Assembly: GCA_030603595.1 (NCBI GenBank)
Contig: JAUVXL010000021.1
Coordinates: 1 to 32,179 of the forward strand
Reading direction: 5' to 3'
From: Sedimentisphaerales bacterium
GTDB taxonomy: Bacteria > Planctomycetota > Phycisphaerae > Sedimentisphaerales > Anaerobacaceae
Length of the DNA stretch: 32,179 nucleotides
The notes under the pieces were generated by a model that was not told the DNA's origin, ran no database searches, and worked only from the letters and a program-made list of their open reading frames with translations. Made by a program: the position numbers and the translations under genes. Positions 23,403-26,805 of this stretch are shown piece by piece (within the stretch, counting starts at the first letter, position 1; each line of letters opens with the position of its first letter).

Positions 23403-23439
23403 AAAAAAGCGGCCTTGTGCCGAACACACAAGGCCGCTT
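23403..23439 (-). terminator. Rho-independent terminator of pilin-Hint gene
   Basis: A 13-bp perfect stem AAGCGGCCTTGTG / CACAAGGCCGCTT (23407-23419, 23427-23439) has a 7-base loop. On the minus strand it is followed by a T-run (from the A-run 23403-23408). It lies about 42 bases past the stop of the gene at 23482 and should end that transcript before the glycan cluster. Confidence 0.9.
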
Positions 23440-23481: not shown

Positions 23482-24876
23482 CTATTCTTTCGGCAGCTTA
23501 CTACAATCAACCGCAGCAACTCCGTCTTTGCCCACGAAGAACACATTGGCGCCTTTAATTTTAAGGTTGTAGGCGTTGCCTACAAAAGGCATCGGTCTCT
23601 TTACGACGCTGGTGAGGGTAATTGGGCCCTTCAGCGACTGCAGTTTCGAGCCGCTGGTTAGATTCTCTACCGCAACCCATTTGCCGGCGACAGTCAGGAA
23701 ATTGTGCGAATGGACAACGATGATAGAGTTTCCACTTTCAAACGTCATGTCGTAACAATCGTACTGTCCTACACCGTGCTCCTGGAGATATTCGACTTCG
23801 GCCGCATTATTGAACACGCTGACCTTCCGGCCCGGGCGCATTTCTACGATTGGCGCGAATTTTCCATCCGCGTCGGCCGCACTATCAAGCATGCGAACCT
23901 TCTGGCCGGGGCGCACTTCTATGATCGGCACAGGCTTTCCGTCCGCCCACACAAGAGTATCAGCAGGGAAACACAGCCGTGCCTTGCCGCCGCCGCCGTC
24001 AGTGACCAGCAGCGAGTCGTTTCTGGACACGGGAATCACGTCGGGAGTATTAACCAGTAGGCCTTTCTGCCTATTCGCCACTGCAGGGTCAGGATTGTCC
24101 CATGCCGTGTAGATATTGTCGTCATCGACACCGCAGAACGACTCTTTCTCGAAGGACGTGTGCCCGTCAATAAACAGTACGTTTTGGCCGTCTTCCTGAT
24201 GGGTCAAAGCATTGCCGGCCTTAATCGATTCCCTGTCTCCGATGGGCTGGAAATCGTTCCAGGCGGATGGATTAGTCGTCACTCGGTCCTTGGTCTCAAT
24301 GCTATTCTGCCACGGATTGGGGTCCCCCGCAACCGCCATGCCGGGATCGCTCGAAGAGGTCAGGGAATAACCTCCACCGCCGCCACCGCTTATTCCGAAG
24401 GGATTATGATACGCGTAGCTGCAGTGCGCCTGCCCGATTTGGCCGAAATCCCAGAGATCGACAAGGTTCCTTGTGGGCGCATCGTTCGCGACCTTGAAGG
24501 CGCTAACACCCGAATCACCCTTGCACAAGAACGACTTCGGCGTTACCTCCGAGTACTTAATCAGCACGAAGAAACAGGATGAGATACTCCCATTGCCGAC
24601 GGGGCTGCCGTAGGCAGTCGCCGCGTTGAAGGCTTGCCAATTGTTTATGGGACTCTGCCACGAGCCGTCATTCGTACCGGCACGAGGCAATTCATCGTCG
24701 TAGTCGGTGGCGTAAATCAGCATCGCCTTGCCGATACCGGAGAGATTCGTACCGCAGTACAGCCGATACGCAATCTGGCGTACTCTGGCCAATGCAGGCA
24801 TCAGAATACCCATCAAGAGCGCAATGATCGCGATAACGACCAAAAGCTCAACTAATGTAAAACCTTTCTTCTTCAT
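23482..24876 (-). CDS. Prepilin-type protein fused to Hint autoprocessing domain
   Basis: The 464-residue protein has an AAGGAGA ribosome site. Residues 1-30 are a type IV prepilin signal: 'KKKG|FTLVELLVVIAIIAL' with cleavage after Gly5 and Glu at +5. Residues 31-250 resemble planctomycete pseudopilin-like proteins and end in 'HQEDGQNVLFIDGHTSFE', close to the known H-X9-DG segment but with ten residues in the gap. At 302 a Hint domain begins ('CFPADTLVWADGK'), with 'VVHSHNFLTVAGKW' and 'AVENLTSGSKL' in the middle and 'AYNLKIKGANVFFVGKDGVA' near the end. The usual terminal 'VHN-C' reads 'AVD-C' (D457, C458). Residues 311-335 and 336-360 are a tandem duplication. It may undergo self-cleavage at Cys302 outside the membrane. 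Pilin and Hint calls are strong; activity is inferred. Confidence 0.85.
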   Translation of the reverse strand: MKKKGFTLVELLVVIAIIALLMGILMPALARVRQIAYRLYCGTNLSGIGKAMLIYATDYDDELPRAGTNDGSWQSPINNWQAFNAATAYGSPVGNGSISSCFFVLIKYSEVTPKSFLCKGDSGVSAFKVANDAPTRNLVDLWDFGQIGQAHCSYAYHNPFGISGGGGGGYSLTSSSDPGMAVAGDPNPWQNSIETKDRVTTNPSAWNDFQPIGDRESIKAGNALTHQEDGQNVLFIDGHTSFEKESFCGVDDDNIYTAWDNPDPAVANRQKGLLVNTPDVIPVSRNDSLLVTDGGGGKARLCFPADTLVWADGKPVPIIEVRPGQKVRMLDSAADADGKFAPIVEMRPGRKVSVFNNAAEVEYLQEHGVGQYDCYDMTFESGNSIIVVHSHNFLTVAGKWVAVENLTSGSKLQSLKGPITLTSVVKRPMPFVGNAYNLKIKGANVFFVGKDGVAAVDCSKLPKE

Positions 24877-25378
24877 TTCTTTCTCCTTACATAATTAGAT
24901 TACTGAGATTCGCATCTTCGACCGTTTTCAGAGTCCACAGTGATTGAATTAAGGATAGATAAATGCTTCCTGCCCCATGAACACAAAGCACCAATGCATC
25001 TTCCCTTCATTTGCGCGAATCTCCTGCACGAATTTTCTTCGCTCTGAAACGGTCGGTTTAGTCTCATAATAACTTGGCTCAACACCTTTTGAACCTTCAC
25101 CCTACTCTACTACGGCCCAAACTCCCTATCGGGAGACGGCGGACCTAACTTAAGCATACCCTAATTTCGGCAGGTGGGTTTGTGATATGAAAAACGAGCC
25201 TAAGTATTATTATGATGACAGTTAAATATGATACTAACTTACAAACCTGCCTGTCACTGTACTAAATATTAACACAACCTATCGGCCCTGTCAAATAAAT
25301 TTCGTCATAATCTCATTATTTCGTGAAATATTTTTCGCATCCTTTACTAATCCGGGTTTTTTGCCTAAAATCGCACTT
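24877..25378. other. Divergent intergenic region with structured leader
   Basis: About 500 bases separate the pilin-Hint start and the pyrophosphorylase start. There are several inverted repeats: GAGATTCGC (24905-24913) with GCGAATCTC (25015-25023); CGACCGTTTTCAGAG (24919-24933) with CTCTGAAACGGTCG (25042-25055); CTCCC-TATC-GGGAG (25122-25135); and an imperfect pair 25169-25183 / 25241-25253. A 66-codon frame at 24900-25100 (minus) lies across these and is not accepted as a gene. Promoters for both directions must be here, but I cannot place them with confidence. Confidence 0.5.
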
Positions 25379-26805
25379 ATGACTGCCGACGAAAAGCTGC
25401 AAGACGTAGAAAAACTGCTGCGGAAACACTCCCAAAGCCATCTGCTGGCATTCTGGGAGAATCTCGGCCTCGGTCAGAGGCGCGACCTGCTCGCCTGTCT
25501 CCACGGCTTAGATTGGCCCAAAATCGATGATTGGGTGGCCAATTACGTGAAAAAGGCGCCGCCTGTGGCTGTGCCGGCCGAGCTTGCGCCGCCCGAATTC
25601 TACGCCGCCGAGCCCGTCAATGCCCGGCAGCAGGAGAGGCGCGCAAAGGCGCGCAAATTGGGAAGGGAGCTGATTTCAGCCGGGAAAGTGGCTGCCTTCG
25701 TCGTAGCAGGCGGCCAGGGGACCAGGCTCGGCTTTCCCGGCCCAAAGGGGGATCTGTCGATAAGTCCTGTCAAAAACAAACCCCTTTTCAGGATTTTCGC
25801 TAGACAATCGCCGCCGTCTCGCAAGAATACAAAACGACGTGCCCCTGGTACGTCATGACCAGCCCGCTGAACCACAACGACACCGCTGAAATCTTCCAAA
25901 AAAACGATTATTTCGGCCTCGATTCCGATAACGTCTTTCTATTTCAGCAGGGCACTCTGCCCAATTTCGGCTTTGACGGCAGGATTCTGCTCGCAGAGAA
26001 GGGCAGAATCGCAACCTCGCCGGATGGGCACGGCGGCAGCCTCAAGGCCCTCTACGAAAGCGGCGCCGTCCATGATATGAGAAAACGCGGAATAGAGTAC
26101 ATTAGCTATTGGCAAGTCGATAACCCCCTCATAAATATCTTCGACCCGCTTTTCATCGGTCTGCACGCCCTCGACGGCGCTGAGATGTCCTCGAAAACCA
26201 TCACAAAGACAGGTCCGTTCGAGAAGGTGGGCAATTTCTGCGTCGCCGATGGCAAACTGACCGTAATCGAATACTCCGACCTGCCCGATGCCCTGGCCGA
26301 AAAGCAAAACCCCGATGGCTCGCTGGTTTTTGCGCTTGGAAGTATTGCAATACACATTATCAGCACCGCCTTCGTCGAAAAACTCAACGCCAAGGGCTTC
26401 TCCCTGCCCATTCACAGAGCCGTAAAGAAGATTCCGTACATCGATTCGGAAGGCAACCGCGTCGAGCCGGACGAACCGAACGGCGTAAAATTCGAAACCT
26501 TCGTCTTCGATGCCCTGCCGCTGGCTGCTAATTCGATCATCCTCGAGACTATCCGCAAAGAGGAATTCGCCCCCACCAAAAATGCCACAGGGATTGACAG
26601 CGTCGAAACCACAAAGCAGATGATGATAAACCGCGCCGCCGACTGGCTCGAATCCGCAGGCGTCGCAATTCCCAAAAAAACCGACGGCTCACCCGACTGC
26701 ATCCTCGAAATAGCCCCTAACTTCGCTATCTACAAGGAAGACGTAGCCGAAAAGCTCGACCAAATCCCCAAAATCAACCCCGGCGACCAAGTCTATCTCG
26801 CATAA
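25379..26805 (+). pseudogene. UDP-sugar pyrophosphorylase, eukaryote (UAP1) type, frameshifted
   Basis: Two frames together encode one enzyme that makes UDP-GlcNAc or UDP-hexose from UTP and the sugar 1-phosphate. The first part has the nucleotide-binding loop 'GGQGTRLGFPGPKG' (about 111-124). The second has 'CPWYVMTSPLNHND', 'DYFGLDSDNVFLFQQGTLP', 'GIEYISYWQVDNPL' and 'VIEYSDLPDALA', all standard for UAP1/UDPGP enzymes. The frame changes at about 25801-25803, where one base is missing relative to the expected '...FAETIAAV'; with it restored the protein would be about 475 residues, close to normal. Either the gene is inactive or the assembly has an error. ATG 25379 is chosen; a TTG at 25361 is an alternative and no ribosome site is clear. 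Confidence 0.85.

Follow-up and report, generated by a model that had tools for sequence, protein, structure and literature searches.

The residues that drive protein splicing in inteins have been named and assigned roles (PMC4031507), and Hedgehog proteins use the first N-S shift alone (PMC7664689, PMC9163320). Bacterial intein-like (BIL) domains fall into several types, including an A-type with a C-terminal His-Asn (PMC7765530), and in BIL domains without a +1 nucleophile cleavage predominates (PMC7664689). What bacterial Hint domains do beyond inteins and toxins is largely open. Our search of the freely accessible literature found nothing on pilin-fused Hint domains or on Hint domains in Planctomycetes. 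Here we analyse a prepilin-type protein with a C-terminal Hint domain, encoded in a 32,179-nucleotide stretch of DNA from a Sedimentisphaerales bacterium (GCA_030603595.1, contig JAUVXL010000021.1, positions 1 to 32,179; hereafter the window), and the family of Hint modules to which it belongs.

Architecture of the window protein

The open reading frame at 23482-24876 on the minus strand (coding sequence 23485..24876, stop codon 23482-23484) specifies a protein of 464 aa composed of a prepilin signal, a pilin-like body and a Hint domain that begins at Cys302. It is homologous over its full length to 22 aligned pilin-Hint proteins (alignment A3; 49-58% identity). Residues 1-26 (MKKKGFTLVELL..., 24799..24876, minus strand), which comprise the prepilin signal and an N-terminal helix, are matched by Pfam N_methyl (2.9e-8, above cut-off) and by TIGR02532 (3.5e-7). 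They contain the G|FTLxE cleavage/methylation signal of type IV prepilin-like proteins, and a helix is predicted at residues 8-42 of the AlphaFold2 model. The preliminary description, which had proposed from the sequence a prepilin signal fused to a Hint domain, was right on this point.

The pilin-like body (residues 27-295, 23992..24798, minus strand) is matched by DUF1559 (PF07596) at only 0.3 in Pfam, and the same body occurs in Hint-less orthologs and paralogs. Within it, the segment HQEDGQNVLFIDGH (residues 226-239, 24160..24201, minus strand) is retained in relatives with and without the Hint domain, and H226, Q227, Q231, N232, V233, L234, F235, D237 and H239 are invariant columns of A3. 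The segment resembles the H-X9-DG prepilin motif, but ten residues separate its H from DG, and the H-X9-DG family was absent among the NCBIfam matches of the window protein. Two paralogs of the pilin body at another locus (L069, 8049-9838; G000 contig 354) have hydrophobic multi-segment N-termini in place of prepilin signals, one of them with a zinc-ribbon-like start (MNCPKCGRQ...).

The body leads into a predicted scissile junction, K298-A-R-L301|C302 (23971..23985, minus strand), placed by junction conservation in 68 Hint modules. The Hint domain itself, Cys302-Asp457 (23506..23973, minus strand), was delimited by profile, predicted structure and residue conservation. Its Cys302 and His391 are invariant and His367 near-invariant across the family, while Asp457 takes the place of the terminal Asn of inteins. 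The domain carries an in-frame tandem duplication of 75 bp, or 25 codons (23798..23946, minus strand), whose copies (23798-23871 and 23873-23946) are 76% identical; none was seen in the other members of our alignments of Hint and pilin-Hint proteins. Following Asp457 is a C458-SKLPKE tail (23485..23505, minus strand) that most relatives lack.

An intrinsic-terminator-like hairpin (23407..23439, minus strand; 14 pairs, a loop of 5 and a T tract) lies 43 bp past the stop codon. On the other side, a UTP-glucose-1-phosphate uridylyltransferase gene (25361..26805, plus strand) is a divergent, conserved neighbour. In this assembly it is split by a frameshift near 25741-25850, while the related genomes G001 and G002 have it in a single frame; the split is either an assembly error or a recent pseudogene. 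The predicted terminator and the gene arrangement are consistent with the earlier suggestion that the pilin-Hint gene is its own transcription unit, and the suggestion holds to that extent. The glycan cluster that had been offered as its context was rejected, since this neighbourhood is not conserved at syntenic loci, where no conserved partner gene beyond housekeeping neighbours was found near the Hint genes.

Identification of the Hint fold

Single-protein searches of family profiles detect the window Hint weakly: PT-HINT scores 0.0035, below the Pfam cut-off, and intein_Nterm 0.14. The closest Pfam family is Pretoxin HINT (PF07591), matched by 46 of 47 members; its score for the window protein is 18.0 against a gathering cut-off of 27.7, with one relative (L076) above the cut-off at 30.9. 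A profile of 21 relatives matched PDB 2lwy, a 'bacterial intein-like domain', with 9.8e-8 at positions 7-139, nearly the whole length. With this evidence from its relatives, we regard the window Hint as certain.

Structure prediction gave the same answer. The AlphaFold2 model of a canonical Hint member (mean pLDDT 91.1) matches 2lwy (Z 19.1) and the Hedgehog structure 1at0 (Z 16.5, 2.0 Å over 124 residues). For the window protein, pLDDT in the Hint domain is mostly 76-91, falling at about residues 331-350, while the pilin body is modelled poorly (mean pLDDT 51.1). The window model matches 2lwy (Z 16.8, 2.2 Å, 134 aligned), 6tyy (Z 15.5) and the Hedgehog Hint 1at0 (Z 15.1). The models have the horseshoe fold and the Cys at position 1 that characterise the Hint superfamily. 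In superposition, Cys302 coincides with residue 1 (Hedgehog Cys258), Asp457 with the final residue of the intein and Cys458 with +1. Both the profile search and the structure prediction that had been suggested as checks yielded the Hint fold, and Cys302 had been named correctly as the block-A nucleophile; Cys1 is present in 68 of 68 modules.

A shuffled C-terminal module

The same pilin-Hint architecture, whose presence in related genomes had been anticipated, is found at no fewer than 25 other loci, in two conserved gene positions and several times in single-contig genomes. One position is divergent from the UTP-glucose-1-phosphate uridylyltransferase gene (12 loci, including the window) and the other lies before an aconitase gene (10 loci). 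In G002 both positions stand side by side, occupied by two Hint-less pilins. Prepilin-type matches were obtained in 61 of 61 related genomes, only some of which have the Hint fusion. In G001 the ortholog ends exactly at the junction, and a three-frame search picks up the decayed beginning of a Hint in a different frame (E 2e-4). Hint-less orthologs end at the junction, so the pilin body is viable as a product by itself; it works, or at least persists, when the Hint domain is missing.

Pilins are one kind of carrier among several. Among the distinct modules collected up to the genome scan, 26 were attached to pilins and about 30 to proteins of other kinds, whose bodies include right-handed beta-helix, LRR, GLUG, FGE-sulfatase plus carboxypeptidase-regulatory and beta-propeller proteins as well as a short membrane-anchored protein, with Sec, lipoprotein or membrane signals as judged by eye. 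When the label pilin/other is mapped onto a tree built from 68 Hint domains, it has to change 11 times, and starred branches force at least 5 of these changes. The Hint domain nearest to that of the window ends a beta-helix protein of the same genus (L055/L176; 73% over 96 columns), and the nearest pilin bodies in the genus have no Hint domain. The Hint domain is thus a C-terminal module swapped among unrelated, exported-looking proteins of uncultured planctomycetes, and the initial framing in terms of pilin attachment proved too narrow. Intact Hint domains are under purifying selection: in the pairs tested, dS was 0.18-0.87 and dN 0.04-0.16, with dN/dS of about 0.1-0.3 (0.19 for the window Hint against L055).

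The Hint alignment, used to scan 84,980 species genomes, returned 51 loci, nearly all in Sedimentisphaerales/Phycisphaerae MAGs. In the family of the window, 27 of 89 genomes contain the module, with up to six copies per genome, and strong matches outside this family are almost absent. One such match lies in G324, a genome of another family, where it closes an RHS protein (L129) that terminates in VVRDW. This Hint carries the marks of the module (ERHEG, VVxxH and the VVRDW end), and by its residues it may be a link between toxin Hints and the planctomycete module. A MAG labelled Candidatus Zixiibacteriota contains a Hint module that shares 78% identity with one from a planctomycete (L071, CP070766.1), through either transfer or mis-binning. 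An ordinary Hint with TxxH and VHN also occurs in the genus of the window, in a 2070-aa RHS-type frame (L137, G002 C83). Two G001 contigs are broken inside Hint domains (the end of C504 and the start of C352; L055 and L063), which suggests that the assembly failed to separate Hint copies of almost identical sequence.

Junction, active site and C-terminal end

Across unrelated bodies the junction follows the consensus K-G-R-x|C-F. Among the 68 modules, K(-4) and R(-2) are each present in 61 and G(-3) in 44, a small residue follows, and C-F starts the module in every case. K(-4) and R(-2) lie outside the fold and are kept on dissimilar bodies, as expected if the peptide bond of the junction is the substrate. 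Inside the fold, the block-B His accompanies Cys1 in 68/68 and His43 is found in 67/68; the block-B Thr has become Val or Ala in 66/68, and the block-F Asp is Asn.

The terminal motif of inteins is replaced by R (61/68) and D (65/68), with V-D in the window protein, so that the module ends in R-D-[YWF], rarely H or N. Of the 68 complete members, 61 have no tail past the modelled end, and the number rises to 62 if L093, with its final N just past the model, is counted. Apart from the clade of the window, the +1 residue is aromatic. Because all but a few of the complete members end precisely at RD[YWF/H/N], a partner for splicing is normally missing. The module does not show the Class 1 intein set of Cys1, TxxH, terminal His-Asn, +1 Cys/Ser/Thr and C-extein. 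It has no C-terminal His-Asn of the A-type BIL (V-D in the window protein), and compared with B-type BIL domains, which keep the intein motifs bar the C-terminal one, it lacks the block-B Thr as well as the C-terminal motif. In ordinary Hints of the same class, TxxH and VHN are present, and the chain usually extends past the domain by as many as about 140 residues. Nearly all members of the module end at the Hint, and neither a toxin domain nor a sterol/adduct recognition region was found downstream of it. This residue pattern suggests that the N-S shift is possible in the module and that most members have lost splicing.

Proposed reaction and alternatives

These data are best read as a subfamily of Hint domains that has specialised in N-terminal cleavage or transfer of the Hedgehog kind and does not splice. 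This reading draws on the fold, the invariant Cys1 and block-B His, the conserved junction, the modularity and the purifying selection; that catalysis occurs, where it takes place and how a thioester is resolved are what we infer from them. After export of the prepilin and processing of its leader, the Hint domain would fold outside the cytoplasm and Cys302 would attack the Leu301-Cys302 bond in an N-to-S acyl shift, giving a thioester. Water or an outside nucleophile, rather than splicing, would then resolve the thioester, and the pilin body would depart from the Hint domain with its C-terminus free or linked to a small or surface molecule. Family-wide, the module would act likewise on other exported bodies through its own K-G-R-x|C-F junction. 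We consider it probable that the C-terminal 160 residues are such an autoprocessing module, forming a thioester at the junction and releasing or transferring the body, and a little more probable, from the sequence and the model, that cleavage falls at Cys302. Covalent transfer to an acceptor other than water is a good deal less likely, and doubtful on present evidence. The changes in the block-B Thr, which in inteins helps the first step along, and in the block-F Asp speak against autoprocessing, as does the fact that many relatives are entirely without the Hint domain.

The loss of the block-B Thr and of the block-G His and Asn, and the decayed Hint in G001, would fit a catalytically dead domain kept for structure or adhesion, or a relic of a polymorphic-toxin Hint. 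We think this unlikely, given the presence of Cys1 and the block-B His in all 68 modules and the conservation of the junction beyond the limits of the fold; the toxin reading was rejected, as a C-terminal toxin part is absent. A chance fusion or an assembly error, which the fragmentation of the genome into 361 contigs might suggest, is negligible in view of the recurrence of the architecture at 25 or more other loci with conserved synteny, some in single-contig genomes.

If autoprocessing does occur, a specific cell-surface nucleophile might attack the thioester, so that the Hint domain would serve as a general covalent anchoring or sorting module comparable in role to Hedgehog cholesterolysis. 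The placement of the module at the C-terminus of many exported proteins, whose export signals vary, and its non-HN end, as in Hog domains, are in keeping with this, and the near-invariant His43 lies at most two residues from the position aligned with the Hedgehog general base D303, whose D303H variant is active with a broader substrate range (PMC9163320). The register at D303 is ambiguous, however: by sequence it aligns with E45/E46 of the model, adjoining the near-invariant His47 of the model, rather than with His. The exact equivalence of His43 and D303 is therefore uncertain: by sequence, D303 sits earlier by one or two residues, and aligning A4 to 1at0 with hhalign gave nothing usable. An adduct-recognition region is absent too, and the distribution of triterpenoid cyclases does not match: the squalene-hopene/sterol-type family PF13249 occurs in 16 of the 89 family genomes and the Hint module in 27, with both in G009 only. 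Hint-bearing genomes have next to no cyclases of this type, which makes a triterpenoid an unlikely acceptor, and sterol or hopanoid was rejected as a general acceptor. Anchoring of this kind is on balance unlikely.

Splicing deserves separate consideration for the clade of the window. A D-C-S sequence with a short tail is common to the window protein, G001 (L063, VDCSKLPDE) and four G329 proteins (DCS[KNQ]K..., one a pilin); these Hint domains, carried on different bodies, group in a single clade (support 80). Here Asp457 might act as the terminal Asn and Cys458 as the +1 nucleophile, ligating the body to CSKLPKE. The superposition places both residues accordingly, and inteins with a terminal Asp are known (PMC4031507). 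Val or Leu in place of the penultimate His, the missing block-B Thr, the very short tail and the restriction to one small clade make true splicing improbable, more so than anchoring. The broadest possibility, in which the exchangeable module performs a lineage-wide Hedgehog-like transfer to a defined surface acceptor and this side clade splices bodies to the tail, is likewise speculative, with about the same small chance as anchoring.

Comparison with known systems

Looking forward, about 70 clonable modules are available. As the junction is constant, the catalytic pair invariant and the natural bodies numerous, this set makes it directly testable whether bacteria release or anchor exported proteins by Hedgehog-like transfer, and the junctions together with the two types of C-terminal end could serve protein ligation work.

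The BIL domain of Clostridium thermocellum (2lwy) is the best sequence and structure match to the module. BIL domains likewise occur in variable, exported-type bacterial proteins, and most module members share with them the lack of a +1 Cys/Ser/Thr. Whereas A-type BIL domains end in His-Asn, the planctomycete module ends in Arg-Asp-aromatic at the protein terminus, lacks the block-B Thr and has the constant K-G-R-x junction. The Pretoxin HINT of polymorphic and RHS toxins is the nearest Pfam family, but its ordinary members have TxxH, VHN and the usual extension, in contrast to a module without TxxH or HN and usually with nothing downstream. The Hedgehog Hog/Hint domain (1at0, 6tyy) shares the Cys1-Phe start, the C-terminal placement on an exported body, the one-step logic and the fold (Z 15-16.5); the module differs in having neither the sterol recognition region nor the Thr of TxxH, and the equivalence of D303 is uncertain. 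Finally, planctomycete prepilin-type (pseudopilin) proteins, with their many Hint-less paralogs, have the prepilin N-terminus and body of the window protein, which is set apart from them by its C-terminal Hint fusion.
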